DNA from: Acorus gramineus
Taxonomy: Eukaryota; Streptophyta; Magnoliopsida; Acorales; Acoraceae
Direction: 5' to 3'
Assembly (NCBI GenBank): GCA_030737835.1
Contig: JAUJYN010000069.1
Span: 275,576-339,575 of the forward strand
DNA length: 64,000 nt
Shown here: positions 9,724 to 58,450 of the stretch, one piece after another
Numbering within the stretch: the first letter of the stretch is position 1
How the letters are laid out: every line of letters starts with the position of its first letter
Notes under the pieces: model-generated
The model's database searches: none
What the model was told of the DNA's origin: nothing
The model's input: only the letters and a program-made list of their open reading frames with translations
Position numbers and translations under genes: made by a program

Positions 9724-10352
9724 CTGTCCAAAATCTACAAGAACGTGATCGCCACCGATGCGAGCCAACAACAGCTCAAGCAGGACCATCACGCGCACTA
9801 GATCCCCAACATCCACTACAAGCACACGCCCGCAACCATGTCATCCGCTGACCTCGTGCGCGCCGTGTCCCCCGAACTGCACGCGGTCGATGTGGTGACT
9901 GTCGCGCAGGCCCTCTGGTTCGACCTTCCCGCGTTCTACGCCCAGGTCAACCCCGTCGTCCGCCGCCCCAACGACGTCTTCACCGCGTGGTGCTACACCC
10001 TCCCGCTCGTGGACCCGCGCATGGACTCCGCGTTCAACTGGTACTACATGACATTGGGCCCCTACTATGACGCGGAGCGGAGGCTCATGGAGGAGGAGTA
10101 CAGGAGCATTGCTTTCCCATTCGGTCCGTTGAGGGAGAGGACAACACAGGGCCGTTCGAGTTCATGTCAGAGGTGGACATGGGGTTGGATGGGTACCTTG
10201 GCAAACTGCATTCGATTGGGGTCCGCATACCAGATGGCGAAGGATAGGGGGGTTAAGCTACTTGGGGAGGAGGTGGTGATTGAAAAAACAAACTAAAGAA
10301 CAGGGAAGATGATTGGAGTTTGAGGCGTGAAGATCATTGTCCTTAAAGTGAT

Positions 10353-10487: not shown

Positions 10488-10539
10488 TGGTATCAGAGCT
10501 AGAAATTAAAAAACCCTAGTTTTTTTTTCTTTTTTGGAA

Positions 10540-11250
10540 TCCTTCGCCGTCGCCGTCGTAGTCGTGCCCTTGCCGTCGCCGTCGCCGTCGTGCCCCTGCC
10601 GTCCCCGTCGTACCCCTGCCGTCCCCGTTGCCGTCGTGCCCTTGCGGCTGCCGTCGCCGCCCCTGCCGCTGACCCGCGCCACCCTGCCGCTACGCGCGCA
10701 GCCCTGTCCTGCCGCGCCCAGCCCTGCCCTGCCCGGTGCCCTGCCGCGCGCCTTGCTGCGCCCTGCCCTGCCGCGTGCCCAGCTCTGCCCTGCCAGGTGC
10801 CCTGCCCGGTGCCCTGCTACGCCGTGCCCCGCCGCGCCCAGCCCTGCCGCGTGCCCTGCCCTGCCACGCGCCCTGCCGCGTCGTGCCCTGCCGCGCGTTT
10901 GTCCCTGCCCTGATTACCCGGGATCTGTCGCGCCCGACAAATCTGCCCGGGCACTGATCCGATGATCCTACCCAGATTTCCCAGGATTTGCTGGGACTGC
11001 TCGTGCCAGCCTGTATTGGGTGTTCTGGATCGTCTCGAGCACCTGACCCGACACCCAACCCGGATCCTGCCTAGCGACCCGACCGGGACCCTGCCCAGCG
11101 ACCCAACCCGGACCCTGCCCAGCGAACCCGACCCGACCCTGGCGCTGCCCAGCGACCCGACCCGGATCCTTCCCAGCGACCCGACCGAGATCCTGCCCAG
11201 CGAACCCGGCCCGACACTGCCCCGCGAACCCGGCCCGACACCCGACCCGA
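10540..11250. repeat. C-rich low-complexity leader of the Copia element
   Basis: Two simple-repeat blocks fill the untranslated leader. At 10545-10910, CCGTCGCCGTCG and GCCCTGCC-type repeats give spurious Pro/Ala/Arg open frames. At 11040-11240 there are degenerate units of about 22 bp of the form GACCCGACCCGGATCCTGCC. The composition is very unlike the AT-rich surroundings. I do not regard the open frames here as genes. Confidence 0.8.
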
Positions 11251-11459
11251 GTCCGACCTCAGGTCAACTCCGGCCGCCCTCCGGCTCCTCCGGCCGCCCG
11301 CCGCCACCTCCGGCACCTCCTTGAGACTCCGAATCACTAAATCGGTTATAACTTTCTCTCCGGAAGTCCGATTAAGGTGATCCAGGAGTCCATTTTGCTC
11401 GATTTTTCGTGCTCTACGTCCTCGTCTGCTTCTGATCCTCATCCGAGTGGTTCTGCACA

Positions 11460-14400
11460 ATGTCAGAAACCAACGGCAACCCTACTCTTCCGACACCGGC
11501 GGCTTCGAAGGTATCTCGTCAGTCTACTTCGTCATTTATCTATGAGGGCATCTTGGGGGCCGCTCCTGCTACGAAAGACAACGACCTTCTAAGCAGTGTT
11601 ATCAACCGAAAGGCCGAGGACATCATCTTCCTCCTATTGTTGCTACGACTGCTACTTCGATTGCCTCCATTCAGTCACACTCGGATATGCTTGTCCAGAT
11701 CAGTCAGCGCCTAGACCACCTGATTCTGCAGCAGTCACTTTCTGGTGCTTCTACTCCCTTTGCCTTGTCTTCTACTATGGGTACTCCTGCTTATTGGATT
11801 TTTATTCGGGTGCCTCACATCACATGACTCCTGATAGTTCTATCCTCACTGCATGCTCACCTGCACCCTCACACCTCCCTTCGATTCATACTGCTAATGG
11901 CTCTCCTTTAGTCATCACGCAGTGTGGATCGATCACCACCACATCCCACCCTACTGGCCGCCTTTCATTACCATTTGTTTTGCATGCTCCTGAGCTTTGC
12001 ATGAATCTTGTGTCTATTAGTAGATTGTGTGATTCTGGATTCACCATTACCTTTACCTCTTCTGGGTGTTCTGTGCAGGATCCACGTTCAGGGCAGAGGA
12101 TTGGTGTTGGTCGTCGGATTGGCGGACTGTATTATGTGGAGTATCTTTATCTTCCTGTACCTGATCCCTCAGTTTTCTGTGGCACTGTCACCTCTGATAC
12201 TGACTTGTGGCATAAGAGGTTAGGTCATGTTTCTGAATCTCGTCTTAAAGACCTTATTAAGTCTGGTGATTTAGGTCATGTTTCTTTCTCTCCTCTTTCT
12301 GTTTGTGAGGGCTGTAAATTAGCCAAACCTGTTGCTACTCCATTCCATTCTAGTAATCATCAGTCCTCTAGTCCATTTGAGCTTGTTCATTCTGATATCT
12401 GGGGTCCTTCTCATATCACGTCAAAGTGGTTTTTCGTATTATATCAGTTTTATTGATGACTATTCTCGCTTTACCTGGATTTATTTATTGCGTCATCGAT
12501 CTGAGGTCCCAAAGATATATGAGGTCTTTACCACTATGATTCACACCCAGTTTCAGACTCGTATCAAAATCTTTAGGTCTGATTGTGCTCGAGAATATAT
12601 TTCTTCCACGATGCGTTCTCTTCTTCAATCTCATGGCACTCTCTTTCAGCAATCATGCCCTTATACTCATGAGCAGAATGGTGTTGCTGAAAGAAAACAT
12701 CGCCATATTCTTGAGACCGCTCGTTCCCTCTTACTTTCTTCTTCAGTCCCCAGCACATACTGGGCTGAGGCTGCTCTTCTATCTGTTCATCTTATCAATA
12801 TCACTCCCTCTTCTGTCCTCTCCGGTATGACTCCTCATGAGCGCCTTTACTCCTCCAAACCTGATTATAGCAGACTTCGCACTTTTGGATGTACTTGTTT
12901 CGTGCTTCTCCCTCCTCATCAACGCACTAAGTTGGCCGCTCGGTCAGTTAAGTGTGTATTCTTGGGGATTAGTTTCGAACACAAGGGATATCGCTGCTAC
13001 GATCCTATTGGAGATCGTTTTTGGATAGCTCGTCATGTGTCATTTGTCGAAGATGTTCCCTATTTTTCTTCTACACCCACTGCCTCCTCTCCTCCGGTGC
13101 CTTCTCCTGTTCAGGCCTCTCCTATTGAGTCTCTACCTCTTCTCGGGCCGTCTGTTCTGCTTGAGCCCACTCCTAGTTCTGTTCTCCCTGAGTCTCATCT
13201 TGGCATTCCCACTGCTGACTCTCCTGGTTCTTCGTCTCCTCTTCACACTCCTGCAGCCAACTGGTCCTCCCTGTTCTCCTCCTATTGTGTCTCCTCTTGC
13301 TCCTTCCGCAGATGACTCCGCTGGTACTCCGTCTTCCACGGCTAACACACCTCCCTCTGATGTGGATCCTCGTCCCTTGACTCGCTACCCTCAGCGTGAA
13401 CGTCATCCGCCTGATCGTTTCAGTTTTGACTCTGGACCACTTGACCGATTTGGCTTTGCATCAGTGAGTACCTATTCTCCAGAATTCCAGGCCTATCTCA
13501 CCGCTATACATGCCCATCGTGAGCCCCGATCTTATCGAGAGGCAGTCGAGTACCCTGAGTGGCAGCAGGCCATGGCTGAGGAGTTTCAGGCGTTTGAGCA
13601 GACACAGACCTGGGATGTTGTTCCCCTTCCGGATGGTGTTACCCCTATCAGCTGCAAGTGGATTTTCAAGATCAAGCATCGCCCTGATGGTTCCATTGAA
13701 CGACATAAGGCTCGTCTTGTTGCCAGAGGTTTCACTCAAGAGTATGGCATTGACTATGAGGAGACCTTTGCTCCTGTTGCTCAGATGACTACTGTTCGCA
13801 CCCTTCTCGCCGTTGCTGCTGTTCGTCGCTGGCCTCTCTTTCAGATGGACGTGAAGAATGCTTTTCTTCATGGTGATTTATCTGAGGTTGTTTATATGCA
13901 ACCACCTCCAGGTCTCAGCACTCCTCCTCAGCATGTTTGTCGTCTTCGGCGGGCTATATACGGACTGAAACAAGCTCCTCGTGCCTGGTTTGAGCGTTTT
14001 CGCAGTGTTATTCTGACAGCTGGTTTTGTTGAGAGCCACCAGGACCACTCTATGTTTGTGCGATCCTCATCGCAGGGGCGGGTAATCCTTCTTCTGTATG
14101 TTGACGACATGATTATAACTGGCGATGACTCCGCTGGTATTACTCGGGTCAAGAATCACCTCAGTCGACAGTTTCAGATGAAAGATCTTGGTACTCTTCG
14201 CTACTTCCTTGGTCTCGAGATTGCACAGAGTGATCGTGGGATTCTGCTTTCTCAACAGAAGTATACAGCTGACATTTTAGAGCGTGCTGCTCTCCGATAC
14301 CCGCAGTGCGGATACTCCTCTCGAGCTTAATGTGAAGCTTCGTCCTACGGATGGTGAGCTCCTCTCAGATCCTACTCGATACAGACAGATCGTGGGTCAG

Positions 14401-15028
14401 CTTGTGTATCTCTGCATCACTAGACCTGACATTGCTCATGCCGTCAGTATTGTTAGTCAGTTTGTCTCGGCTCCTCGATCAGTGCATTATGGTGCTCTTA
14501 TGCGAATTCTTAGATATTTGCGTGGTACTATCACTAGATCGATCTATCTGTCATCCTCTTCGACTCTGGTTCTCAGGGCTTACACTGATGCTGATTGGGC
14601 TGGAGACCCGACCACTAGACGCTCCACCACTGGTTTCTGCATATTTCTCGGAGATTCTATCATCTCTTGGCGCAGCAAGAAACAGGAGGTTGTTTCTCTT
14701 TCCAGCACTGAGGCTGAATATCGAGCCATGGCTATCACCACCAAGGAGATTGTTCATCTCAGATCTAGGAGTTACTATGACTGGTCGTACTCCTCTTCAC
14801 TGTGATAACCGGTCTGCTATTCAGATTGCTAGCAATCCGGTCTTTCATGAGAGGACCAAACACATTGAGATCGATTGTCACTTCGTTCGTCAGCACTTTC
14901 TTGCAGAGACATTATCGCTTCCGCATATCTCCTCTGCTGAGCAGCTTGCTGATTTCTTTACGAAGTCACATCCAATTCCTCGATTTCAGTTTCTTCTTCG
15001 CAAACTCACTTTGTATGATCCACCGTGA
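11460..15028 (+). pseudogene. Copia gag-pol remnant, frame-scrambled
   Basis: A gag start (ATG 11460) runs only about 50 codons; the capsid region and the CCHC zinc knuckle are missing. The protease motif near 11810 is damaged by a frame change. Further along are a GAG-pre-integrase domain (DLWHKRLGH at about 12205, CEGCKLAKP at about 12310), the integrase core (HSDIWGP, RSDCAREY, NGVAERKHR), reverse transcriptase with YVDDM at 14097-14111, and RNase H ([17 protein letters not shown]). The reading frame changes near 12420, 13300, 14285 and 14770, besides breaks in gag. No single polyprotein can be translated. Confidence 0.9.
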
Positions 15029-23548: not shown

Positions 23549-23970
23549 CATAGGAATGAGATAAGTCAACATAGAAATTTTTGATCTTTATGAGACTTGT
23601 CCCCTCCCTTGGCCTATATAAACTCTCAAAGTTGAATGGGAATGCAAGTAAAATTTGATTAAAAAATATTATCTACAAAGTGAACCTAAGTAGATTCTTT
23701 TGAGTGCAAACTCTCTCTTATTTTTTTTCTTGTAATCTAATTGTGAACAATTTGAGAGTGGCGAGAGTTTCTCTTATCGTCTTTTGTTGATCGACGATCC
23801 GTAGGAGGTGGAGAGTACTCTCTTATCCTCTACGTTCAATTGGGTCAATCCGATTGGAGTGACGAGATTATCTTCTTATAAGGTCACGTCTCCTCTTTTA
23901 AGAAGGTGTTCCCTTATCACATCCATTCCAACAACAATAACAACAACAACTACTACTCATCAAAACAACA

Positions 23971-24887
23971 ATGGTTCTCCACAAAGTCTCCCCACTCCTA
24001 AAGTCCAAATCGAACCCCCCCTTCTTCTTCCCCAAAGGTGTCTCCATCGGCCCGTACCACCACGGCAAAGCTCACCTCGCCGCCATGGAGCCCCTTAAGA
24101 AATTGATCTCCAACAGGTACGGCGCCGAGGCCCTCGAGAGGGTCTGTGGTGTGGCCGAGAGCGTGCGCAAATGTACGAGATCGATCATCCGCGCATCAAA
24201 ATGGACCCCAACAAGTTCACGGACATGCTGTTCCTCAACGCGTGCTTCATCGTTCACTTCATTTCCAGCTACCACAACCTCTAGATCTGCACCTTGTCGG
24301 GGGCGTCTGTCATGGAACAGAACCACCAAGTATAAATGGAATATCTGGATCCTGTGTGTGAAGAACAGAGCATCCATGTGCAATGAGAGAATGACACGCA
24401 TGTGATAAAAATTTCCTTGAGTCGGATTGAATGACCTGAACCCGGTGTGTCAACATAAATGGATTCTAGGAGTTCGAATCCAGTCAATGTTGGTTCCATC
24501 ATAATTTTTTCATGGAATGGGACCGATACACACATTCCTTTGAGGGTATAAGATATATCATGAATGTTTCACTTTGTTGAATTTATTATTTAATTTGATT
24601 TAGAAATTGCAGTGAATTAAGTTTAATTCAATGGAAAATCTCTTTTAGTTAAGTGTAAAAGTTATTTAGTTTAATTAATTTAATGCTATAAAAATAAAGT
24701 CCATCTTGGTATGGTCATGATTAGTTTGACTAATCTTTAGTTAGTTAATTTGATTCATGGGTTGTGAAGAGTGTTGATAATTAATTTCACTTCATGTCCT
24801 GCATGCGTCAACCAGAACTCCACCCAGGTTTCCACCACCACGGGCCAAGCTACCTCTCCGGAGTGCTTGGTCGATCTGCACCTCCAG
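23971..24887 (+). pseudogene. DUF247 copy C: exons 1-2 only, truncated
   Basis: Exon 1 (from ATG 23971) has the KVSPLL...VSIGPYHHGKAHLAAMEPLKK block, then a 1-bp deletion near 24173 that puts the rest out of frame. The former frame would also meet a TAG near 24284. The donor region (CCA-A|GTATAA near 24330) and the 72-nt linker exon 24816-24887 are recognisable. After intron sequence to about 24980 a LINE fragment begins, and no third or fourth exon exists before copy B. With its promoter displaced by 2.9 kb this copy is dead. Confidence 0.9.
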
Positions 24888-29169: not shown

Positions 29170-30114
29170 CACCGCGTAAGATTGCAGATAACTTCTTACA
29201 CTAAACGAGTTGAATATATAACTTCTTACATTTTATTAACCTCGTAACTCTATGAACTCGTGCAAGCCTCCTCCCCTAAATCATTGTTCTTTTGGTCTCC
29301 AAAGCAACGGGAAGTAATTCTTTTGATAGTGTTATACTATAATTGCCCATGAGACCTTTTTATATTAAAAAAAAATTTGGTAAAGGCTCTCGCTAATTAT
29401 GTTATATCTCATTAAGAAATGTTATTTTAAAAAATAGATTTATACAATTCGTTGAAATATATATATTAATTGATATATATCTTTGAATAAACATGTTTCA
29501 TTCAATTCATTTGTGCATATATATATTTCTTTTCTTTCGCAAAAGTGTTTATTTCATTAGAAGAAATATTAATATTTAAAAAAAAAATTCAAAACATATT
29601 CAAAATTCAAATGATAAAAGTGATTATAGAAATGATTGAATGTAATATTTTTTTAAAGAAAAATTAAAGGTTAGTTTACTTGGTATTTAATTTGATGGAT
29701 GGGTGATACACAAACACACATGCATTATGTATGTGTATCAATTGTATTGCATTGCTGGCCAGCAGCATAAGGAGTTCTTTGTTACGTTTGTCGTTCTAAA
29801 CAATTGGCTACTCATTAGGTTACTAATTAGTTATCTATCATTTCTTTTTTTTTCTTTTCTTTTCCTTTTCCTTTTTCTTTTTTTTTTTCTTTCTATTGGA
29901 AAGAAAAGGGGCACGTTTGTGTATGGGAAACAATTTTTTCCACTTTGCAACTCACACATGTTTCTTTTTGTCTTGGCATTGTCTTAGCATATGGACGAAA
30001 AGTCTCATTCTTGACTTACCATGTGGCTTACAAGCCTACAGCCTTGCTAATGTTTAGAGAGATTTATTTCCTCTCCTGTATATCAAAGTTCGTATAATTG
30101 TTTCACACATATAA
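29170..30114. other. Non-coding stretch between LINE and Pack-MULE-like element
   Basis: The DNA is AT-rich with a pyrimidine-rich tract at 29840-29895. I see no gene or clear element ends. Confidence 0.5.
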
Positions 30115-30663
30115 TTGTTTTATGAGTCATGATACCCAGGTCCCAAAATATAAGTCTCACTCACAAACTTCATGAGGTGTCATCCTATTATTGGTTGACT
30201 TGTTGACTTTTCAAAAAGAGTAAAATGTCAAAATACAAATATGCCATTCATTAAAAATCTTTCTCATTAATCCAAATCCTTTTTTTTTCTCAAATCAGTT
30301 ACTAATTTTATGGATTTCAAAATTTGAATTTTGAAATCCTTACCTAGTAACTGAATTTTCTATTTCAGTTACACCCAAAACTTACTTAAATTACAATAAA
30401 ACTTACCTAAATTATTATTTTTTTGTCAAAATTCAAACGGCTACTCTTTTTTTTTCAAATTATGTATATATTTTTTTAAGAATGTTATTAACTAAACATT
30501 ATAGCATTTAACAAACATCTTTTCAATTTACATAAATAAGATTATCTCTGAAAATAGAAATATATTTCCTAAATATTTACATCATTTACAATTATTTGTT
30601 GTATTTACATAAACATTGTTACATTTAGGTAAATGTAACATTACAGCTACATTTACATAACTA

Positions 30664-31070
30664 TTTTACATTCCATACAATGTTTAAACAATTTTAAAGA
30701 GATACTCTCTTCAATAGTCAGTTACATTTTATGAAAAAAATCAAACACCTTTTTTGTTATGAGTTACATTTAACAAATATTACATGAACTATTTGATTCA
30801 TTTTCATAAAAACTGTTACATTTATATAAATGTAACATAATAGTTACATTTACCTATATGTTTTACATTCCATGCAATGTTTAAACAATTTTAAACCGAT
30901 CCTCTATTCAATAGTCACTTACATTTTATGAAAAATATCAAACACCTTTTTTGTTATGAGTTACATTTAACAAATATTACATGAACTATTTAATTCATTT
31001 TAATGAAAATTGTTACATTTACATAAATGTAACATAACGGTTACATTTACCAAATGTAATTACCAGATGT
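30664..31070. repeat. Tandem repeat, about 197-bp unit
   Basis: Blocks beginning TTTTACATTCCATACAATG recur at 30664, 30861 and (diverged) about 31069. Each unit contains many short TTACATTTA / TAAATGTAA palindromes. It lies inside the Mutator-like element. Confidence 0.8.
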
Positions 31071-31378
31071 TTTACATTCTATACAATATACCTGTAGTTG
31101 ACACATTTATGAATGTAACAAATATAAATTAATACATGCATGCGGTTGACAGTTACATTTACGAATGTAACAAAAACAACACAAATTTGAAAAATGACTA
31201 TTTACATTGTCAACAATGTAGCAGTAGCATCAAACAAACTACCCCCATATAAAATGTAACAATATCAATTGTTACATTTAGATATTGAGACAAAAACAAA
31301 TCAAACTGTGAAAAATGACATTCAATACATAAAAAAAATCGTGTTTAAATTTAAAACAATAAGCAAAATACAACTCGA

Positions 31379-31684
31379 TTACAAATCTAATAATGTCAAA
31401 CTTGATTCAAGAGACATTGAGGTGACATCCAAATCGAAAAAAAAGGGGTTGTTCTGGGCGTCGATCTGCGGCGGAGGCGGTGGGAGAGGCGGCGTCGATC
31501 TACGACGAAGGATTGTGTACGCCGACGGCTTCCAAGAGACCATCTCGAAATCCTCCACCGCCATCGCCGTTGACGGCGGTGGGAGCTGGAGCTTCAGGTG
31601 GGACGGGAGGGTGTTGCGGCGGCGGAGAGCGGGGGGTTTGCCGTTGGCGTCGGATTTTTCTTCGTCGGTGACGATGGAACCCAT
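31379..31684 (-). CDS. Putative captured gene 5' end carried by the Mutator-like element
   Basis: A 101-codon open frame on the minus strand begins MGSIVTDEEKSDANGKPP, is basic and proline-rich (ALRRRNTLPSHLKLQLPPP), and has an MAVEDFEMVSWKPSAYTIL segment before becoming low-complexity near 31520. Upstream on its strand is a CT-repeat leader (31735-31774 as GA on +), like a plant 5' UTR. GC content is far above the rest of the element. The reading frame is uninterrupted, but the C-terminal third looks fused to unrelated sequence. I do not recognise the donor family. It may be transcribed or may be a relic. Confidence 0.5.
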   Translation of the reverse strand: MGSIVTDEEKSDANGKPPALRRRNTLPSHLKLQLPPPSTAMAVEDFEMVSWKPSAYTILRRRSTPPLPPPPPQIDAQNNPFFFDLDVTSMSLESSLTLLDL

Positions 31685-31730
31685 TGAGAGAGAGTTTTTA
31701 TTTTAATTTTATTTGGAAGGTTTTGAAGAG

Positions 31731-31734
<4 letters not shown>

Positions 31735-31774
<40 letters not shown>
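31735..31774. repeat. (GA)n microsatellite
   Basis: A pure GA tract that reads as a CT-rich leader for the minus-strand frame starting at 31684. Confidence 0.9.
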
Positions 31775-31779
<5 letters not shown>

Positions 31780-32051
31780 TTTTAATTTAGGTCGTTGATT
31801 TTTTTATATATATTTTTATTTTTAAAGGGTTTTGGCAATTATTGGGAGAGAATGAAAGAAGGAGATAATCATTAAGGATATAGTAGACAATGCACACTTG
31901 CCATATCATAGGGCCTGATTTAGAGCTTGTGGAGTTGGGGCCTAGGAATCATTATTGTTGTTTTATATATATAACCATAAGTTTCATTTGTCGCAGAGAA
32001 TCAAACTCCGTACAACTGTGTCACACATACGTACAATTGTTTTATATAAAA

Positions 32052-34123
32052 GGAAATTTGCATTTATACCCCTATTAAATATTAAATATGATATTTTGCA
32101 TTATACCCCCTTAAAAAGCTGCAGCTATACCCTGAAAAAATCTTTCGTGTTGCAACTGTGCCCGTGAGGTTAAGTTCCGTCGGATGAAAGTGGAATATAC
32201 CAGGAATATTCCATTAACGGCGTTAAATGCAAAATGAATTGACCAAACTACCATGTGGACCGTAGGGGCTTGAAAAATTGCATTTATACCCCTGTGTCTG
32301 TCTGAAATTGCATCTATGCCCCTGTATCTGCCTCATGCTTATGAAACCCCTTTTCTTCAACCTCCAGACCTGCTGAAACCCTTTTTTCTCATCTTCTTCA
32401 ATGATTGATTGAAAACCTTATAATTATTCAAAAGACTAAGATAGATAGTGTTTATTTGGGTTTCACTGACAGATTTTATTTTCCATAATAGAAAATCTAT
32501 CAACAAACACTATTTCAATCATATAACCATACCAGAAAATAATCACAAAAATTTTGAACTAAAAAGGCAATGACTAATTGCCCCTAAAAAATTATGAAGT
32601 GTTAACTCCAGTTCCTTTCATTCTATTTGAAACCAGAAGTTAACTATTTCATTCTAAAGTGAAAAACAAAAGAAAAAACATTACTAAAATAAAAAAAATT
32701 TGTTATGGTTGTTCATTTAAATTAAAAACATATTACAAAAAATAACATAATACAAAACTTTAACTATTAGTATTTCTATTTATTTATTTAATCTTCTGTA
32801 TAAATGACACAATAGTATTAAATATGAATTAAATGAAATAATCAAAATTACATGTTACAAAAAAAAAAACATAACGTGTTTGAAGACTTTAAATATCAAA
32901 TTATATCTTCAATTTTATGTGAACATCATGCTAAGAGTGAGTTTTGCAACCTCCAGGCCTATTGAAACTCTTTTTTCTCATCTTCTTCAACATAAAAATA
33001 AAATATACAAGGATCTAGCTAAATTCTTCATGTTGAAAACCTTACAATTATTCAAAAGACTAAGATAGAATGATAGATAATGTTTATTTGAGTTTCATTG
33101 ATAGATATTATTTTCTATAATAGAAAATATCAACAAACACTATTTCAATCATATAACCATACTAGAAAGTAAGGCATAATCATCTTGACCATCATAGTGA
33201 AAAAAATATAAAAATATTGATTGACAAAATTTTCATGTCAGATGATCCTCAACATGTAGAATAAGCACCAATTAGCATAATGCACCACATAGAGACACAA
33301 AAACACCGATTGATTGTAGAATGAACAAAAAACAAAAACCACAAATTTTATTTCAATGTTGAGATTTCACGAACAAAAATCAAAAGACAATAGAATCTCT
33401 AGTTAGCATAATGAGAACCATATGGAACTCAACAATGATCCACTCCAAGCATAGAAGAACCAAGTAGAAATTTGATACTTTTTAGATAAACTGTTTAAAC
33501 AACTGTCTTGATTTTAAAGTTGATATTACAAATGTTTCAAGAAAAAAAAAAGATCTATGTATATTTGTCTATTCAGCTACTTATTTTTGTTGTTTAATAA
33601 ACAAGATCACAATGATATGTGAAATATTTAAGCATTGAAAAATACAACAAGACATATGTTCTCTTATATGTTCTTATATGTTCTTTTTTCTGAGCCTTTA
33701 TCAATCTTCCAAAACCCTCCATACCTAAAAATTAGATCAACATGAGTGTCCTATTCTAACTGCAATACAAAACAACATAACTTATATGTTCAGCCTTGGT
33801 AACGGAGACAGACGGAGGGGCACAGTTGTAACACGAAAGAAGTTTCCAGGGGTATAGAGGCAATTAGCTTTTCAATGGGGGTATAACGCAAAATACCATA
33901 TTTAACAGGGGTATAAATGCAAAATTCCATGGGGGTAAAAGAGACATTTCGTGGGGTAGAGTTAGGTTCGTAACCATGGTTGGTTCAGCCTTGGTAACGG
34001 AGACAGACGGAGGGGCACAGTTGCAACACGAAAGATTTTTCAGGGGTATAGATGCAATTAGCTTTTTAAGGGGGGTATAACGCAAAATATCATATTTAAC
34101 AGGGGTATAAATGCAAAATTCCC
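32052..34123. mobile_element. Mutator-like element with long inverted ends
   Basis: A perfect 9-bp TSD, TATATAAAA, lies at 32043-32051 and 34124-34132. Inverted ends of roughly 120 bp begin GGAAATTTGCATTTATACCCC on the left, with a counterpart on the right. The right end is duplicated in tandem: 33797-33920 and 33988-34123 are near-copies about 190 bp apart. Inside, 32360-32535 is repeated directly at about 32945-33175. There is no transposase. It lies only about 80 bp from the neighbouring Mutator-like element. Confidence 0.85.
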
Positions 34124-34469
34124 TATATAAAACTATAATTAGTAAAAGAAAATCAATAAGTGTAACTTATTCTGCTTGCCTATTACAACAAAAAAACAAA
34201 ACACTTTGATTAATGACCTTCGCCTTGCAATGTTCTACATACAAAAAGAGATTACACCGATCGAGCAGCAAAGATGAGAAATTTTAGAACCATTTGAAAT
34301 GTCAAACATAATTATCAAAATAAAATAGATTCTCACAATGTCATGTAAAAAGCAAGCAGCAAGTACATGGATAATATAAAAGAAAATTTCTGAAAATGTG
34401 ATCATAATTATTACTATCACGACTTTTTTTAAAACGTGATCAATGTCAAAAATTCTAGAAGTGACAGAT

Positions 34470-34714
34470 CTTCAAACTGTCATGACGTGCACAGGAAGCT
34501 ACAATCCCTGCAAAACAAAAGCAAAAAAGAAAAAAAGAAAGAAAGAAAAAAAGCAAAGTGAGATTGTAATTAATATATAGCAAAAGCACAAATATGCCAA
34601 TTAAAGGCTATACTAATCCTTGCTGTCTCACTTATTAGAGGAAAAACAATTGCTGATGCCCACCTCTTTATATATTAAACAACAACAACAACAACAAAAC
34701 TCATCAAAACAACA
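34470..34714 (+). promoter_or_regulatory. Conserved 5' flank and TATA box of DUF247 copy B
   Basis: This is homologous to the 5' flanks of copies A, C and D, with TTTATATATT at 34667-34676, about 40 bp before the ATG, and a CAA-rich leader (AACAACAATGG). The promoter is undisturbed, unlike that of copy C. Confidence 0.65.
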
Positions 34715-36407
34715 ATGGAACTTCTCCACAAGGTCTCCCCACTCCTCCTCGAGTCCGAATCGAACCTTCCCTTCTTCGTCCCCAAAGTAGTCTCCATCGG
34801 CCCGTACCACCACGGCAATGAACGCCTCGCCGCCATGGAGCGCTTCAAGATACAGTCCTTAACCATGTTCGACGACGACGCCCGCGAGAGGGTCTATGGC
34901 ATGGCCGAGAGCGTGCGCAACAGGTACGAAATCGATCCGTCCGAAGAAATGGACCCCAACGAGTTCGCGATGATGCTGTTCCTCGACGCGTGCTTCATCG
35001 TTCACTTCATTTCTCGCGACCACCAGGTATACATGGAGTTTGGATACTCTGTGGGAAGAACACAAAATATTCCTTGCGTCAGAAAGACTTGAACCCTCTT
35101 TTAGTTTAGGGACCAGGTTAAAGTCCAACATTAACTAGTTGGACAATCTGATCGTCCAACTCATTTGTAATAGTTGGATTTCATCATATCAACTTAAGAA
35201 CATTAAGTGTAATTGTGATAAATATCATGTCATGAATAAAATTTAGAATTATATTACATTTTAACATTTTCCATTTTAGAATAATAAATTAGCATTCAAT
35301 GTTTTTAAGTTGATGTGATAAAATCCAACGATTATAGATGAGTTGGACAATCAGATTGTCTAACTAGCATTGGACATAACCCAGTCCCTTCAATTTAATG
35401 TAAAAGTTGCTTAGTTTAAATAATCTAATGTTTTAAAAGTCAATCTTGGGATATATATATATATATATATGTCATGATTAATTTGAGTCCATGTTGTTTA
35501 GTTTCATTCATGGCCGGTTGCGAAGAATTAATGTTGATAATTAATTTCACTTTGTTTCCTTCATGCAGGGCCAAGTTGCCTCATCAAAATCCTCAGTACG
35601 GATCCACACGGCCGGGTATGTCCATCCAATTGCAAATGATATTATAAGGAGTAGTTTTTTTTTTAAATAATTAAATGTTGCTACGTGATTTTATTAAAGA
35701 TTTCGAAATACAATATTGAAGGAGGTGAGAAAAAAATAAAAAAAATACAAAGAGTAGTGTTGATAATTAATTTCACTTCATTTCCTGCATACCTCAACCA
35801 GACGTCCAGAACCCAGGATGCAACTACCACAGCATAGAGGAGGCCTATCTCCTAGCTCGGAGTCCTTGGTGGATCCGCACCTCCAGGTATATCCATCCAA
35901 TTGAAAACGATATTGATTTTAGTCAACCATGTGATATTTGTCTCAAACACTTTATTTTGTTTCTAGTCATAGGGCAAAAGTTTATTACATTGTACTAAAT
36001 ATTTTTAGGAAAATATGATCAGATTTGTAACAAAACCTAATGCATGTAGACCAATATTTATGTTAAGAGATAACACTCTTACCAAAAAGTGCTAAGATGG
36101 CATGTCCTCTTGTAGTTGGTTCGAGTCACTAAATTATTTTTTTTTTCACATAATTAAGACTCATATTTTTTTTGCAATTGTCTTCAGACAGATTTTCTTC
36201 TTTTGAAAAAAAATTTCACATAACAATTAAATCAAAATTAGTAAACCTATGTATCAATCATCAAGTTGTCTATCCAAATTAGTAAAATTCTCATAATATA
36301 AAAATTTTAACTCCTAAAAAATCCATACAAAATTTAAAAATGAAATGTAAAAAAAAAATTATATAACAGGAGACGTGATTTACATTAGTTTAATGTTTCT
36401 TACATAG

Positions 36408-36480
<73 letters not shown>

Positions 36481-38728
36481 ACCCCGCGGGACATGCAGCT
36501 CTGCGGGATTCGAACACGACCGTTCGATCGGGGTCCATCCATTGATCGGCTGTTTTTTTTTTAAAAAAAAAAAAACTTTCCTATTCTACCCCCCCCCCCC
36601 CCCCAAAAAAAAAAAAAAAAAAACCACTTCACCACCCTCGATAAACCCCTCTTCAACACTTCAATACTCCATCAAATACTAGCTCTCTCATCCATCTCTG
36701 TTTTTTTTTTCTTCTTCACTTAAAATCATCCCCAAATCACACCGCACCTCCTCTCTTCACGCCGGAACCTCCATCCAACCGTCCCTGTCATCATCCCCGT
36801 CTAAAACCCTAAATTTTTTGGATTTAGGGTTATCAGTCACCTATATATATATTGTTGGATTTGTTTTATGTTTGTGGTTTTTCTAATACTCATGAGTATT
36901 GTTGTTTAAGGCCATAAAAGGATGAATTTTCACCGTAAAACCATAAAATTCATCCTTTTATAGCCTTAAACAACAATACTCATGAGTATTAGAAAAACCA
37001 CAAACATAAAACCGTAAAACCATAAAATTCATCCTTTTATAGCCTTAAACAACAATACTCATGAGTATTAGAAAAACCACAAACATAAAACAAATCCAAC
37101 AATATATATATATATAGGTGACTGATAACCCTAAATCCAAAAAATTTAGGGTTTTGGACTGGACGATGACGGGGGACGGCTGGATGGAGGTTCCAGCATG
37201 AAGAGAGGAGGTGCGGTGTGATTTGGGGATGATTTTCGGTGAAGAAGAAAAAAAAAACAGAGATGGATGAGAGAGCTAGCATTCCATGGAGTGTTGAAGT
37301 GTTGAAGAGGGGTTTATCGAGGGTGGTAAAAGGGTTTTTTAAGGGGGGTTAGAATAGGAAAGTTTATTTTTTTATAAAAAAAACAATCGATTGGATGGAC
37401 TCCTATCGAACGGTCATGTTCGAATCCCGTAGAGCCGCACGTCCCGCGGGGTATCAAATTATATATATATATATATATATAAGCGGCGGTTGACTTGATC
37501 AAATTAACTCGTAAAAAATTTAAAAATAAAATATAAGTCAGGGTTATTTTAAAAATTTCCCATTGATCATACGAGTATCATATTGATTTTTTTATATAAT
37601 AATAATGGATTGGTATGATCTAGGGATACGTGGTACAGGATCTATTCCTCCTCGAGAACCAGTTGTCATATGAGGTGCTGAAGGCGGTGATGCCAGATCC
37701 CTCATTCGATGAAGTATTGGCGAAATTCATATGCAGCGTCTCCCGCAACAAGGATATGGAGAGAGCCAAAGTTGTGGTCAGGGGGGCCGCCGGTGAGGAT
37801 TCGAGTAGCCCAGATGAACACCGGATTGACATGACGTCGAGGCGCCACACAGAACACCTTCTCGATATGTTGCATCAGATGCTCGTCAGCCCCAAAACTA
37901 AAGGTGTTGGCACGCGTGCGAAGGACAGATGGGATACATTGAAGTTCAGGTCGGTGAAGGAGCTCACCGAGGCCGGGATCAAATTCAAGCCCAACAAAAT
38001 CACCAACCTCACTGACGTCAAGTACAAGGCATAGTAGTACTTCAATTCATAGCTTCTTTGTAATATATAAACCCCTCAAAAAAACCTATATCTTCGAAAC
38101 AACCGTCTTGAAACACTATTATCATCAATATCTCTGGAAAAAGTTAAAAATTATGCGATGTACATTATAAAAATTTTGTAAATATGCGCCTCAAAAGGAC
38201 ATTAATATGTACAACTTACCTGGTTAATCGCAGGGTCGATCTTAAAAATTGTTCTTCTAACATGTGTTTGAACAGGAGGAATACTTACATGGCACCGTAT
38301 CCCTACCCCAACTGATCATCGACGACACGACTAAATCGAAATTCCTGAACCTAATGGCCCTAGAGATGTGCCCTAAAGGCGAACGAGGCTACGGCGTAAC
38401 TTCGTACATCTGCCTCCTCGACAATCTAATCGACCACGCCGATGATGTCCGCGAGCTCCGCTTTAGAGGCATCCTCGTCAATTGCCTCGGCAGCGACCAA
38501 CAAGCGGCGGACCTCTTCAATGAGCTCGCGACTAATCGCACACCCTACCCCGATGCCTATGGGGATATCATCACGGGGATCCACAAGCACCTCAACAACC
38601 GGTGCAAGGTCTCCCTCGCGATTGGGTACAACAAGCATTTTAACACGCCTTGGAGTATGATCGCGACGTGCGCTGCCACGCTGGGTCTCGGGCTTTCTGC
38701 CGTGCAGGCCTGGTACTCGGCTAAGTAG
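34715..38728 (+). CDS. DUF247 (UPF0481) protein, copy B, five exons, intact
   Basis: Exons are 34715-35026, 35569-35615, 35802-35886, 37624-38028 and 38276-38728, predicting about 433 aa. Exon 1 has KVVSIGPYHHG and the FLDACFIVHF block; exon 4 has DLFLLENQLSYEVLKAV and FRSVKELTEAGIKFK; exon 5 has L-I-I-D-D-T-T-K-S, LLDNLIDHADDVRELR and LGSDQQAADLFNEL, then the hydrophobic C-terminus after FNTPWS, predicted to anchor the protein in a membrane. Linker exons 2 and 3 are 47 and 85 nt, neither a multiple of three; together they restore frame, and read alone in phase 0 exon 3 has a TAG. The last intron has a GC donor (AAG|GCATAG). No lesion is visible, so this is the best candidate for a working family member. 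The biochemical role of DUF247 is unknown outside grass self-incompatibility. Confidence 0.8.
36415..36479. repeat. (AT)n(GT)n compound microsatellite
   Basis: An AT run followed by a GT run at the left edge of the large inverted repeat. A second AT run abuts its right edge (about 37458-37481). Confidence 0.9.
36480..37452. mobile_element. Foldback element: near-complete palindrome in an intron of copy B
   Basis: The left arm (36481-36936) and right arm (about 37018-37450) are inverted copies, ending in CCCCGCGGGAC on both sides. The arms include a TTCGAA-containing block near the tips and a TACTCATGAGTA palindrome near the centre. The centre holds a direct duplication: about 36944-37012 and 37018-37088 are near-identical. 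No coding capacity or target-site duplication could be read; both sides are microsatellites. In an unspliced pre-mRNA this would fold into a hairpin with arms of roughly 430 bp. Confidence 0.85.
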
Positions 38729-40359: not shown

Positions 40360-40589
40360 TCTTCAGACTATCATGACGTGCATGGGAAGCTCTCGGACAT
40401 TCCCTCCAAAATAACACAAAATAAAAGCAAAGTGAGATTGGAATTCATTATATTAATATAAAGCAAAAGCACAATTATACCATTCTTGAAACAATTAAAA
40501 GCTATTGCAAACCATCCATATTAATCTTACTGTCACACTTATATATATCATCCATTCCAACAACAAGAAGAACACTCATCAAAACAATA
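40360..40589 (+). promoter_or_regulatory. Conserved 5' flank and TATA box of DUF247 copy D
   Basis: This matches the 5' flanks of the other copies, with TTATATATATC at 40539-40549, about 40 bp before ATG 40590. Confidence 0.6.
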
Positions 40590-42396
40590 ATGGCACTTCT
40601 CCACAAGGTCTCCCCGCTCCTCCTGGAGTCCCAATCGAACCGCCCCTCTTTTGTCCCCAAAGTCGTCTCAATCGGCCCATACCACCACGGCGACGACCAC
40701 CTCGCCGCCATGGAGCCCCTCAAGAAACTGGCCTCGGACAGGTACGGCACCGAGGCCTGCAAGAGGGTACATGACATGGCCGAGAGCGTGAGCAAAATGT
40801 ACGAGATCGATCCTTACCTCAAAATGGACCGCGACAAGTTCAAGGACATGCTGTTCCACGACGCGTGCTTCCTCGTTCACTTCATTTCCTGCCACCGGAA
40901 CCTCCCTGACCCGTTGGCCCCAGACCACCAGGTATATATGGAGTCTGGACCCTCTGTGTGAATGAGAGAATGACACGTATGTGACAAAAAATTGCTTGTA
41001 TTAGATCGAATTTACGAACCCCCATGTGTATCTATAGGTGTGTAATTGGTCCAATCAATGTTGGTTCCATCATAATTTTTCCATGAAATGGGACCAACAT
41101 GTGCATTCTTTTGAAGGGATGAGATAGATATATAATAACTGCTTCAAATATATTACTCAATTCGATTTAGAACTTACTTGAATTAAACTTAATTCAATGA
41201 AAACCTCTTTTAGTTTAATGTAAAATTGTTTAGCTTAATTAATTTAATGTTTCAAAAATCCATTTTGGTGCCGTCATGATTAGTTTGACACCATGTTGTT
41301 TACTTTGATTCATGGCCGGTTAAGAAGAGTGTTGATAATTAATGTCACTTCGTTTACTGCATGCCTCCACCCAGGGTTCCACCACAACAGACCAAGCTGC
41401 CTCCTCGGAGATCTTGCTGGGTGTGCCCATCCAGGTATATCCATTCTGTTGCAAATGATATTACGAAGAGTATTGATAATTAACTAATTTCACTTCATTT
41501 CCTCCATGCATCCACCAGACGGGCCAATCCTCGGAGTGCTTGGTGGATCTGCACCTCCAGGTATATCCATCCAGTTGAAAAGGATATTGATTTTAGTCAA
41601 CCATGTGATGCTTGTGATAGATGCATTTGTTTCTCGTTCTAGTTCAAAAGTTTATTAAATTTGTGACATAAACTAATGGATGTGGACCAATCATAAAAGA
41701 GATAGCACTCCTGTAAATAAGCGCTATGATAACATGTCTTCTTGTGATTGGTCCAAGTCATTAAATTGGTTAAGTTTTTGTCACATAATGAAGACTCGTA
41801 TTTTAATACAATTTTGGCTTCAGATATATTTTCTTCTAACAAAAAACAAGTCATATATAACAATTAAATCGAAATTAGTAAACCAGCATTGCGTAGGTTT
41901 TTTTATCTCAAGATCTCCTTTAAACATGATTATCAATCACATTTCTTCTTTTTTTTTTTACTGATGTAATTCTTAATATCTAATCTTAATTTTTAAATTT
42001 TGAATATTTGGTTAATTTATGGGATAAAATTTTAAATCTTATCTGAATTAAATATTAATTCTTATCTTAAATTTAATTTTAAATATTATTTTAATTTTAG
42101 ATTTTAAATCTAAAATTTTAAATTTTCATATTAAAATTTATATATATTAGATTTATGGATAAATTCATTGAACACGTCACACATTTTGAACCATAAAATC
42201 TTTATCAAATCTATCTCTCTCTACCAAAATTTTAAAATTTTAAATTAATATAAATTTTAAAAATTTAGTTAAATTAATATATAAATTTAAAATTCACATA
42301 TTATAAAAATATTAATTTCATAAAAATTCCATACAAAATTTTTAGAGTGAAGTATAAAAACAAAAAATAAATTGTATATAATAGGAACCCCACCAA

Positions 42397-42440
42397 GTTG
42401 CAACCCCACCCAAAAAAAAATTTGAGGGTGGGGTTGCAAC
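42397..42440. repeat. Short perfect hairpin
   Basis: GTTGCAACCCCACCC at 42397-42411 and its exact reverse complement at 42426-42440, with a 14-nt A/T-rich loop, in intron 3 of copy D. A GA-rich stretch (42440-42600) follows. The role is unknown. Confidence 0.8.
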
Positions 42441-42771
42441 CTAGAAGAAAAAAAAATAAGGAAGAAAAGGGGGAGGAAGACAGAGAGAGTGGAGGAGGCC
42501 GGGGGACGGCGGAGGAGGGCAACGGCGGTGGTAGGTGGAAAAGGATGGAAACTAGTGGAGGGCGAAGTGGAGGGAGGGTGGAGACAACCGGTGACCGGCA
42601 GAGTTTGCCGCCCTACCCCCTATCTCTTTCTCTCTCTTCTTCTTTCTCTCCCCCTTCGCCCACCACAGCTATTGTTGGTCAAAAATTGATTTCCATACAG
42701 TTTTGAAAATAAAATAAGAGTTATTTTTAAAAATTACCCATTGATCATATAAGTATCATATTTAATTTTTT

Positions 42772-43727
42772 GGGAAATTTTTTAAATTGACCTTAATTAA
42801 ATAATTAATGTTAAAAATAATATTTCTCAAAAATTATTTGCATAAGCGACCCTCTATCATTTTTTTTACCATTTGACTATGCCACATCAGCACCATCTCA
42901 CTCCTTTGATTTTTTCTTAAATGGTCTTCCACGTGTCTAGTATAATGTGGTTGTATAATGTACTATACAAGTGTACTGTTTTTGGATTGCGTATGTTTGA
43001 TCCTGTTTAAGCTTGAAATTAATTAATGTGTGTGTTTAAATGCATATATGATGTGAAATATTTTTGTTTTCAAATGTTTGATATTTAACATTTTAAAAAA
43101 AAATAGAGTACAAATAAGAGTATTTAGATACTCAATTTTCAAATATTCCTCTTTAATTTAGAGTACCAACTCAATTTTAAAGTTTCCCAATTTTTTTAGA
43201 ATAATATTTATGCATTAAATTGCATAAAGAAATTTCACTAAATAAATGTATTTATTAAGGGATAAACCCCAAAGAAATTTTCTAAAATTTAGAAATAACA
43301 AATATGCCATTCTCTAAAATTCTATCCAAAAAAAAAAATCTTTAATAATTTTGAAACCGAAAATGACCACTATACCCTTATATCTATATTTTTGTTCTAA
43401 AAAGATCTTATTTGATTTTTTTTCAAAATAATTCATGTAAACAAAAAAAAAAGCTTGATTCTAAATTAATTTAAAAGATAAAAAGAATTTAATGAGTAGT
43501 TAATGGCATGGGACCCACGTACATGTAAAACTCATAATGTTTCTCTCCTTGAATGAATATCATTAAATAAAGAAAAAATATAATTGTGATCAAGGTGGCG
43601 TTGATGTGGCATTGTCAAATGATAAAAAAAAGAAAAAATAGTAGACGGTCACCTATGCAAATAATTTTTAGAAAATGTTATTTTTTAAAATTAATTATTT
43701 AATTAAGATTAATTTAAAAAATGTCCC
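42772..43727. mobile_element. Mutator-like element in intron 3 of DUF247 copy D
   Basis: A 9-bp TSD, TAATTTTTT, lies at 42763-42771 and 43728-43736. Inverted ends of about 125 bp begin GGGAAATTTTTTAAATT on the left, with GGGACATTTTTTAAATT read inward from the right. The paralogous intron of copy B (around 37560-37610) has the uninterrupted empty site, so the insertion postdates the split of B and D. No coding capacity is seen. Confidence 0.9.
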
Positions 43728-44712
43728 TAATTTTTTTTATATAATAATGAATTGGTATCAATCCAGGGGTTCGTTGTACGAGATCTATTCCTCCTCGAGA
43801 ACCAATTGCCTTATAAAGTGCTGAAGGCGGTGGTGTCCGACCAGTCGTCGTTCGATAAAAAAGTGGTGGAGTTCATACGAAGCGTCTCCCGCAACAACGA
43901 CCATAGAGCCAAAGATGTGGTCCCGAAGACGAAGGATGCGACAAAAAGCACAGATGAACAACGGATTGACATGTGCAGGCGCGACACGGAAAACCTTCTC
44001 GATATGCTGCATCAGAAGCTCGTCAACCCGAAAACTTGCGGCGGTGGTCGCGTGTATTGGAGGTATGGTTGGGACTCGTTGAAGTTCAGGTCGGTGAAGG
44101 AGCTCACCGAGGCGGGTATCAAATTCAAACCCAACAGAATTGGCTACCTCACTGACGTCGAGTACAAGGCATAGTAGTACTTCATGACTTTTTTTAAAAG
44201 AATGGAGTTTTTTTTTCTTATATATATATCCTTATTAAAATAACGATCTTGCAACACTATTATTATTAAATCCCTCAAAAAAATTAAAAAATTGGGCGTG
44301 AATGCTTTTTTGAAGAGTATTATAAATGTTAAAAATTTTGTAAATATGTCCCTAAAAAAGGCATTAGTGGCTTAATGCTCCATTTATGCCTTTTGAAGGG
44401 GGTATTGTGGACAATAGTAATTTATCAGGGATATTTTGATAAAATTAAATGCTTTAAAGGTCATGTGTAAAACCCCTCAAACTATCACCTACCATCGTCC
44501 AGGACCCAAATGCCGAGGGTCCCAGTATCTATATATATATATATATATATATTTTTATTTTATTGGGAAGTATTTTTTTAATTATTTTATTTTATTTTTA
44601 AAAGCTTATCTATTATTTTCTATCTTTTAGTTTTTTTTCTTTTTATTTGATCTAGCATATTCTTTGATTTGCAAACAATAAAATCTTATACGTGGCTCTT
44701 TATTTCACATTT

Positions 44713-45207
44713 GAAAAAAATTCATATAACCCTTTGATTTTTCTTAAAATCCATATAACCCCCTAAAAACATCTAGTAAATCCAAAAACCCCCGAATAAA
44801 ATTTACGTTTATAGATGATGAATATTTGATAAATATTATGTTTAGTTAACCCTGGTAGAAAACACAGTATACCAAAAAAAAACCCACAATGTGTTAAAAA
44901 TGCAAAAATTCTTCAATAAATGACGATTTTATCCCTCCGGATATGGTTTTATAATATATCCAGAAATGGTAAAATCGTCATTTTCATATGATTTTTCACA
45001 TTTTTAACACATTATAGTAGTTTTTTAGTATATTATATCTTCAGTCAGAGTTAATCAAATGAAATATTTGTAAAATATTTATCATCTACTAATGAAAATT
45101 TTATTCAAGGGGTTATTTGGATTTACTAGGTGTTTTCAGAGGGTTATATGGATTTTAAAAAACGTCAGGGGGTTATATGGATTTAAGGGGTTGCATGGAT
45201 TTTTCCC
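44713..45207. mobile_element. Foldback Mutator-like element in the GC-AG intron of copy D
   Basis: About 495 bp made almost entirely of two inverted arms of about 230 bp (44713-44940 and 44960-45207), with CCATATAACCCCCT-type motifs repeated in each arm. The flanks TTCACATTT (44704-44712) and ATCACATTT (45208-45216) are a 9-bp duplication with one mismatch. No coding capacity is seen. Confidence 0.8.
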
Positions 45208-46170
45208 ATCACATTTTTATTCTAATTTTTTTTTCCTTTTTTCTGTTTTTATTATCTATTATTGGGATTTTTATTACTCCACTATTTTTATTATTTTGTT
45301 ATTTATTTATAATTCTATATTCTTATTTTATTGGGAATTGTTAATAAGATGAGGTTCTGTGAAAAAATTAAGTTTTAGAATACTATTTGAATTTTTTTTT
45401 TGTGATGACACATTTAAAAAATTATGTGAACATAGGCTCATTTTTCAATTTCAACTATAGCTTATATCTCTTCTAGTGGTGCAAGGAGATAGTAGTCGAT
45501 GAGTTCAAGTAGATGTCTTTTCTACTTCGTTATTATGAGAATGCTTCTGGAAGTTGCATGATGTTTTTTTTTTTGGTTTTCATCCCTTCATTTATTAAGA
45601 CGTATGCCTACCGTTTAACTCAAAGAAAAAAAAAAACTATAGACTATATCACTTTGGCCCTATATCACTTTGGCTAATCTCATAGTCGACCTTTAATATA
45701 GTGCTTCTAACATGTGTTTGATCAGGAGGAATACTTATGTGGGATCGTGTCCCTACCCCGAATAATCATTGACGACACAACCAAATCGAAATTGCTGAAC
45801 CTGATGGCCCTAGAGATGTGCCCTAAAGGCGCACGAGGCTACGGCATAACCTCGTACGTTTGCCTCCTCGATAATCTAATCGACCACGCCGACGATGTCC
45901 GCGAGCTCCGCTTTAGAGGCGTCCTTGTCAACTGCCTCGGCAACGACCAACAAGTGGCGGACCTCTTCAACGAGCTCGCGACCGATCGCACACCCGATCC
46001 TAAGACCTATGTGGATATCATCACGAAGATCCAAGTGCAAGGTCACCATCGCAACGACCTACAACACGCATTTTAACACGCCTTGGAGTAAAGTCGCAAC
46101 GTTCGCTGCCACACTGGGTCTCGCACTTTCTGCGGTGCAGGCCTGGTACTCGGTACTCTCGGCTAAGTAA

Positions 46171-53514: not shown

Positions 53515-55450
53515 ATGGCGGATCTGTTCAAGAAGCAGAGGAAGAAGTACTTGGATAACCGACCGGGTTACCCCGACGAGCCCTTCCGATTCATTGCTTC
53601 CAAGACTCCCAAGAACGACCTCGCCTGGGACGTCGGCACCGTCAGCGGCCAAGCCGCCGTTTCTGTGAGTCTCTCTCTCTCTCTATGTCCCTTCTCAATG
53701 TTTAGTAAAAGTTCAATGATTTGATAGCTTTCATAGACGATATTTTGTTTCAGTGGATCCTAACTCTATTTTACAGAATAAATACTTTTTAGAGTACCGT
53801 GTAAAATACAACTTCAACCCAATATTCTACATGTATCTCTATATGTTTTAGAATAGAATTTATCTATCAAAAATTGAATGAAAAATTTCATGTAATAATG
53901 TAATTAAATATGAAATCCGATTGAACAGTTTTTACATTTGCAGTAAACTGTTTCTGCAATCGTGTAACCAAATGGAAAAAATGGGACATCTTTAGACAAA
54001 TTTTAAGCAAATGGTACTCAAAACCTGAGTTTTTCAAAAGCTAAGGGGAGACAGCTTCCTGTATAATCAGTTTTAAACCCAGTGTTATAAAAAATCAGTT
54101 TTATAATCCCACTATCAAAACTGCCTTAAACTAAAAACATATAAATGTTAATAAACTATATCTTATCTTAATAGTTAATATTATCTTTTTTCAAAGTGTA
54201 TTCAATATTGGTCTCGTTTAAAACATCTCCATTGTAATGGTAATTTAACACCGCGGGGTTTATGTAATAAAAGTTATGTTATTTTTTAAAATATATTTGA
54301 AAGAAAAAATAAAACCATCATATTTGGAGGATCATTCCAAAAATGGAGGAAATAATAGTCTTCAATATAGAGATTTTACTTGGAATAATGTTGGAGATGC
54401 TCTTACTATTCATCTGCATAACAAAGCATTTGAACTCTTCTGAATGTCTGAAAAGTAATCTATTAGGCTACCTCTTATATGTATTTTGCATTTTGTTTTT
54501 TCATTGAACCATGCGTTTAGCACGGCACATTCATCAAACAATGCGTTTAGCACATTATAAATCTATGTATTTATTTTAACTCATGATGTCATTACTATCC
54601 ATCAGTCAAAAACAATAGCCTGATTATCTCTATGATCTAAGTGATCATTTTATTTGGTTTGAATAATATATTACATTTTTTATAAATTAAAATAAAAACA
54701 TAATTATTATTCGGTATATTTTTGTGACTATATCGTTATTTCTTTCTCCAATGATATACTTTCATCGTATTTATCATTTACGAGTGCACACTCATCAAAT
54801 ACTCTCATGTGTAACAGCTATCCAAAATCTACAAGAACGTGATCGCCACCGACGTGAGCGAGCAACAGCCCGCGCACGCGCACAAGCTCCCCAACATCCA
54901 CTACAGGCACACGCCCACAACCATGTCACCCGCGGACCTCGCGCGCGCCTTGTCCCCGGAACCGCACGCGGTCGATGTGGTGACCGTCGCGCAGGCCCTT
55001 CACTGGTTCGGCCTCCCCGCGTTCTACGCCCAGGTGAACCACGTCCTCCGCCTCCCCGGCGGCGTCTTCGCCGCGTGGTGCTACACCCTCCCGCTCGTGG
55101 ACCCGCCCGTGGACTCTGTTTTCAACCGGTACTATGCGACGTCAGGCCCCTACTGGGACGCGGCGCGGAGGCTCGTGGAGGAGGAGTACAGGACAGTCGC
55201 GTTCCCGTTCGGGCCCGTGGAGGAGGAGGACCACACGGGGCCGTTCGAGTTCACGTCGAAGGTGGAGATGGGGTTGGACGGGTTCCTGGATTACCTGCGG
55301 TCGTCGTCCGCGTACCAGACGGCGAAGGACCAGGGGGTTGAGCTGCTCGGGGAGGAGGTGGTGGCGGAGTTCGAGGCGGCGTGGGGTGGAGAGGGGACTA
55401 AAGTGGTGAGGTTTCCTGTTTTTCTGAGGATTGGGAGGGTGGTTGAATGA
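53515..55450 (+). CDS. Class I SAM-dependent methyltransferase, two exons
   Basis: Exon 1 is 53515-53664 (50 codons) and exon 2 is 54818-55450; the intron is GT-AG, phase 0, 1153 bp, predicting 260 aa. The layout (LFKKQRKKYLDNRPGYP, DVGT.SGQAA motif I, the LSKIYKNVIATDVSEQQ strand with the acidic residue of motif II, VVTVAQALHWFGLPAFYAQV) is that of plant and Dictyostelium putative methyltransferases of the Methyltransf_11 type, length normal. The substrate is unknown. Motif I reads G-T-V-S-G: the central Gly of the usual GxGxG loop is Val (GTC at 53641-53643). This could weaken SAM binding or be an inactivating change. The GC-rich exon is otherwise intact. No other methyltransferase gene is intact in the window. 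Confidence 0.9.
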
Positions 55451-56590: not shown

Positions 56591-56700
56591 TTAGATAGTA
56601 TTAACATTAATGTTAATATCAATATCAATAATTAAAGGGTGTTACTGGGGGGGGGGGGGGGGAGAGAGATGTGATGCTATGGAAGGGCATTAAAGATGAA

Positions 56701-58147: not shown

Positions 58148-58199
58148 AAAGATGAAAGATGCTGCCTGATTTGTAGATGTGAAAATCTCCATTGGTATC

Positions 58200-58450
58200 C
58201 TGTTTTTGAGGAAGGGTGAAAACCTCTTTAAGTAATCAAAGTTGATTATATCTTCATCCGTTAAGGATAACTGTTCTTGCCCCCACGATGTGACGTCCCC
58301 AGTCACGAATGCTTGCCTCTACCTTCTCCCACCCATTTTCCAATTGTGTCCCCTTGAAGATGGCTTCATTCCATATTCTCCAAATGGCCCACGCCTTAGT
58401 GGGTATGAAAGATTGGGATATTACAGCCCAAAATATAATGTCATATACAT
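58200..58450 (-). mobile_element. LINE zf-RVT-end fragment
   Basis: Minus-strand residues AIWRIWNEAIFKG, then LENGWEKVEASIRDWGRHIVG, are typical of the ORF2 C-terminus of plant LINEs. Only about 200 bp survives, next to the Mutator-like element. Confidence 0.65.

Follow-up and report, generated by a model that had tools for sequence, protein, structure and literature searches.

The window analysed here is a stretch of 64,000 nucleotides of Acorus gramineus DNA, and its content has the look of a plant nuclear sequence. At least three DUF247-like genes can be recognised in it by eye as separated open blocks in the same orientation, at 1773-6833, 34679-38728 and 40425-46076; the Pfam-tested part of them, the frame at 1773-2294, matched the DUF247 plant family with an E-value of 1.2e-21. 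A further start-like block, at 23941-24405, appears by eye to be frame-broken. The frame at 54815-55447 (approximately 54815-55450) gave weak methyltransferase matches below the Pfam cut-offs, and a frame at 9802-10296, which has no Pfam match, looks similar to it by eye. The frames at 10503-15028, ahead of which lies a GC-rich, low-complexity stretch, presumably belong to a Copia-type retroelement. ARAGORN and Rfam (at the gathering threshold) reported nothing in the window.

Two related elements with different target-site duplications

An element of 1834 bp, here called E1, occupies positions 30124-31957 of the forward strand. The original prediction had placed its ends right to the base: perfect copies of the 9-bp target-site duplication TTGTTTTAT lie immediately outside them, at 30115-30123 and 31958-31966. 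A scan of the window for exact 9-bp pairs this far apart gave 4 hits in 62137 start positions, the real pair counted.

Comparison of the window with itself revealed a second member of the family, E2 (56701-58147, minus strand, 1447 bp), ∼25 kb from E1, with the same termini and without the GC-rich block described below. The 9-bp duplication predicted for E1 was confirmed, and its homologue E2 carries a different pair of its own, also perfect, which reads TTCATCTTT on the minus strand and lies at 56692-56700 and 58148-58156. A scan at E2 spacing returned exact 9-bp pairs at 5 of 62524 start positions, again including the pair of the element itself. Two unrelated duplications at homologous ends provide strong evidence for two transpositions.

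Alignment of the left end of E1 with its reversed right end identified an imperfect terminal inverted repeat of ∼60 bp (30124-30185, forward strand). Within the outermost 62 bases, the left and reversed right termini share 39 of 58 aligned bases in E1 and 48 of 60 in E2, and the left ends of the two elements agree at 48/62 bases. The ends of the family read TGATACCCAGGYCCCAAAA and GGGGCYTRGGAATCATTATTG. One word from the left end and one from the right were each found in the window only at E1 and E2 when up to three mismatches were allowed (expected numbers, 0.05 and 0.00).

Mutator-like elements (MULEs) are described as having target-site duplications of 9-11 bp and terminal inverted repeats of typically 100-500 bp (PMC3310237), and the duplications given for hAT and CACTA elements are 8 and 5 bp, respectively (PMC8903248). 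Both members of the present family have perfect 9-bp duplications, of different sequence, and ends of ∼60 bp, shorter and more diverged than the typical 100-500 bp. The 9-bp duplication combined with inverted ends fits a Mutator-like element, an assignment that draws mainly on duplication length. As had been predicted, E1 contains no intact transposase: its longest stop-free frame has 148 codons, on the strand opposite the frame discussed below, and the longest frame of each strand, which is what was submitted to Pfam, had no match above cut-off; smaller frames may contain remnants of one.

A variable slot between conserved arms

E1 and E2 share an AT-rich, CpG-depleted core, which in E1 extends over 30124-31283 (forward strand). 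All 19 overlapping 80-bp windows of this left arm up to 31283 matched E2 better than 40 shuffles each. The arm contains 2.3 copies of a 197-bp tandem repeat (30603-31055, forward strand), in which GTTACATTTA and its complement are frequent. The copies align to one same part of E2; the left arm of E1 is longer than that of E2 partly because of this repeat. The right end of E1 (31852-31957, forward strand), including the right inverted repeat, is also common to E2, over 106 ungapped columns. Between the two arms lies a slot (31284-31851, limits approximate) that is filled with different sequence in the two elements and measures ∼570 bp in E1 against ∼530 bp in E2. A MAFFT alignment of E1 with E2 was dropped for the slot and the right end, as it wrongly placed the right end of E2 against the GC-rich block of E1; the comparison of these parts is based on local comparisons instead.

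Of the windows from 31264 to 31943 in E1, 2/11 beat their shuffles against E2, one of them being the right-end window. The other, 31504-31583, scored 26 against a maximum of 20 in 40 shuffles, and a 13-base identity to E2 can be read in it. Between the GC-rich block and the E2 slot, a score of 26 was reached by 3/300 shuffles. We take this weak resemblance as chance, although it may be an old remnant.

The original prediction depended on the GC-rich block not being common to the whole family. E2, the sole other member in the window, does not have it, and GC never exceeded 46% in 100-bp windows over E2 and its flanks (56500 to 58299). At the scale of one other member, the block is therefore a segment that is not family-wide. 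The self-comparison showed no other copy of it in the window. Coding cargo was not detected in the E2 slot either: all 11 stop-free stretches of at least 25 codons scored negative with the codon table derived from exons of the window (see below), and two peptide pieces from the slot matched 0 Pfam families.

The block (31434-31694, minus strand) has 62% GC and a CpG observed/expected ratio (o/e) of 1.36, with 31 CpG in 261 bp and a TpG+CpA o/e of 0.70. GC is 24-40% in E1 outside the block. The shared core of E1 (30124-31268) has 24% GC and 5 CpG in 1145 bp (CpG o/e 0.33, TpG+CpA o/e 1.47), and the core of E2 also has 24% GC (CpG o/e 0.28, TpG+CpA o/e 1.45). Elsewhere, CpG o/e is 0.85-1.15 in four exon stretches (three DUF247-like and one methyltransferase-like), 0.81 in the Copia-like stretch, 0.82 in the E2 slot and 0.75 in the whole window. 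Methylated transposon DNA loses CpG and gains TpG over time. Since the block shows neither CpG loss nor TpG gain, it either arrived late or escapes methylation. CpG content alone cannot separate gene from transposon, since the Copia-like stretch, which is also transposon DNA, has a CpG o/e of 0.81. The contrast inside E1 suggests that the sequence of the element proper had already decayed when the gene piece came in.

The reading that we favour is capture of this piece by the element. In a variant that differs in the order of events and does not exclude capture, the gene-derived block entered E1 after it had landed, by repair on site, and never moved with the element. For the Pack-TIRs of animals, gap filling independent of transposition is the reported origin in most cases (PMC8277862), and the self-comparison of the window, in which the block has no second copy, agrees with such an origin. 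The E2 slot also has its own content, so a change of the slot is not peculiar to the site of E1, but this is no strong counter-argument. Entry after landing appears to us rather unlikely, though a variant to be taken seriously.

Gene-like sequence in the block

The captured piece, as we interpret it, begins with a leader. On the minus strand, a perfect (CT)21 run of 21 dinucleotide copies (31734-31775) precedes an ATG, so that the CT-repeat leader of the GC-rich segment is present as predicted. Upstream of the run lies a TATA-like word (31803-31812, minus strand), which may be chance because TATAAA occurs 163 times on the two strands of the window taken together. A bacterial-type promoter scan was uninformative for plant DNA.

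The ATG opens the uninterrupted 101-codon frame, starting with MGSIVTDEEK, on which the original prediction had been built (31379-31684, minus strand; its tail extends into AT-rich DNA). Frame length was rejected as the main evidence for a gene: 101 codons were reached by 102/500 segmented shuffles of the element and by 93/2000 shuffles of 31300-31799, so that length is borderline at best. Codon use, which carries more weight, was scored against a reference set of 1400 codons taken from ten exon pieces of the window, two regions of which were Pfam-tested. Codons 1-57 (31514-31684, minus strand) were coding-like by this measure, with 0.20 bits per codon, a score reached by 0/1000 shuffles over six frames, and with GC3 exceeding GC2 by 0.32, a difference reached by 2/1000. 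The ten exon pieces themselves scored from -0.06 to 0.27 in leave-one-out comparisons.

Codons 58-80 (31445-31513, minus strand) are GC-rich and are not coding-like in any frame. They scored -0.73 in frame and were negative in each of the six frames, and their best-frame score was reached by 335/1000 shuffles; two diverged direct copies of a 21-base word lie here, 34 bp apart and out of register. Over all 80 GC-rich codons the score was -0.05 bits per codon, still the best of the six frames for the block. The cut at codon 57 had been picked by eye before codon use was scored. The cumulative codon score peaks at codon 58 (13.0), yet it is not monotone, standing at -3.0 at codon 37, and a second rise takes it to 7.2 at codon 93, within the AT-rich tail, where the background of the GC-rich block no longer fits. 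GC at the three codon positions is 0.29/0.29/0.33 in codons 81-101, versus 0.62/0.53/0.78 in codons 1-80.

The whole of the 101 codons was therefore rejected as captured coding sequence, codons 58-80 being negative in six frames and codons 81-101 AT-rich. This confirmed the suspicion that the C-terminal part of the frame passes into different sequence, with coding-like codon use ending near codon 58. To call the segment an intact gene 5′ end overstates the case, since no more than ∼58 codons look gene-like. The 101-codon chimeric frame is probably not a working protein; protein-coding Pack-MULEs are called rare in one account (PMC8277862).

It is improbable, in our estimation, that the MGSIVTDEEK frame is simply open by chance in DNA that is GC-rich and non-coding. 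The shuffles that reach its length, the 148-codon stop-free stretch on the other strand and the slightly negative mean over 80 codons all agree with such an origin, but it would have to account for a score over codons 1-57 that no shuffle matched, for a frame that outscores the other five in the block, and for a CT run standing ahead of the frame with a start codon at its beginning. The possibility that the block belonged to the element from the start and was never captured (e.g., as the remnant of a family-specific gene), E2 having lost it, seems to us quite improbable: the comparison spans one other family member, one 80-bp window of the block beats its 40 shuffles against E2 and few shuffles (3/300) equal the resemblance to the E2 slot, but the high CpG of the block against the CpG-depleted shared cores of E1 and E2 suggests another history, and codons 1-57 are used like those of the exons in the window.

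Searches for relatives found none in Pfam or the Protein Data Bank, and none among 401 candidate stretches from prokaryote contigs. One of 46 candidate stretches from viral contigs was confirmed (L001, 46% over residues 1-37). This match was rejected as chance, since it lies opposite a 446-codon frame, which we take to encode a phage portal-like protein, in a contig stretch of ∼64% GC. Residues 1-57 may resemble a family of plant proteins marked by LRRRNS and YTSLKDLLP-like motifs, which serves as a lead only; a literature search for this motif family found nothing. The block fits a host-gene segment in composition and codon use, with no homologue from the Pfam, Protein Data Bank and prokaryote-contig searches.

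A probable Pack-MULE-like element with a putative donor gene

We consider it likely that E1 is a non-autonomous Mutator-like, Pack-MULE-like element carrying ∼58 codons of a gene 5′ end with its CT leader, from a donor gene that we infer. The proposed Pack-MULE-like capture stands as regards the 9-bp duplication, the inverted termini, the lack of an intact transposase and the coding-like segment absent from E2; the parental gene is the part of the proposal not shown. In this respect E1 adds an ordinary example to a kind already known, and capture of a gene piece is ordinary and well documented in plants.

E1 would owe its movement to a transposase that is encoded at another locus and acts in trans. 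Judged from its two members, the family appears to be built from two conserved arms, of which the right one is short, with a variable slot between them. The slot of E1 probably received its content when a break in the element was repaired and host DNA was copied into it, and the cargo would be the beginning of a GC-rich gene of the host, comprising the CT-run leader, the start codon and ∼58 codons, oriented from the right end of E1 inwards. Past approximately codon 58, the frame presumably stays open by chance, first in different GC-rich DNA and then in AT-rich sequence. Such events have been proposed to proceed by gap filling or by fork-stalling template switching, on evidence from animals, plants being left open in the account given (PMC8277862). 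The route of capture in E1, like the identity of the donor gene and any transcription of the cargo, is a matter of inference from the DNA.

Rice alone is reported to have >3000 Pack-MULEs (PMC4858842), and these elements are described as preferring GC-rich sequence in rice and maize (PMC3310237) as well as in Oryza species (PMC4858842). Like the Pack-MULEs of rice and maize, E1 has a 9-bp duplication, inverted termini, no intact transposase and one GC-rich, gene-like segment that is absent from a relative. It differs from them in its imperfect termini of ∼60 bp, 100-500 bp being given as typical (PMC3310237), and in that its donor gene is putative, whereas Pack-MULEs are defined by an internal segment from an identifiable, non-hypothetical host gene (PMC4858842). 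With the genic-MULEs of the same source it shares a non-autonomous structure without transposase, an open frame and a GC-rich internal part; genic-MULEs are defined there by overlap with annotated intact transcripts (PMC4858842), whereas E1 is known here from its sequence alone. The PM-ZIBP Pack-MULEs of tomato are likewise small (944, 1347 and 1372 bp in three tabulated rows), with duplications of 9-10 bp, but they have several copies, an identified parental gene and outer inverted-repeat identities of 87-94% in three rows (PMC3310237).

E1 and E2 together, in one window, form a clean worked case of capture, with exact ends and the GC-rich piece as the extra. Breakpoints of a parental gene, if one is found, would bear on how such captures happen. 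A bolder version of the capture reading would have E1 take up a full start unit (TATA-like word, CT leader, start codon and the first 58 codons) that still fires into a chimeric protein or leader transcript, with a family slot ∼110 bp from the right end being repeatedly refilled with host DNA and E2 representing another filling. We regard this as very improbable.

Repeats around the insertion site

The flanks of E1 at 30082-30123 and 32000-32045 are diverged copies of a ∼46-bp sequence, 78% identical, and both copies end in the 9-mer that forms the duplication of E1. This arrangement suggests that E1 inserted at the end of a pre-existing copy of the ∼46-bp repeat. To the right of E1, a repeat of 110-130 bp (32036-32163) has two inverted relatives ∼2 kb away, at 33818-33928 and 34013-34136, which are 80-83% identical to it.
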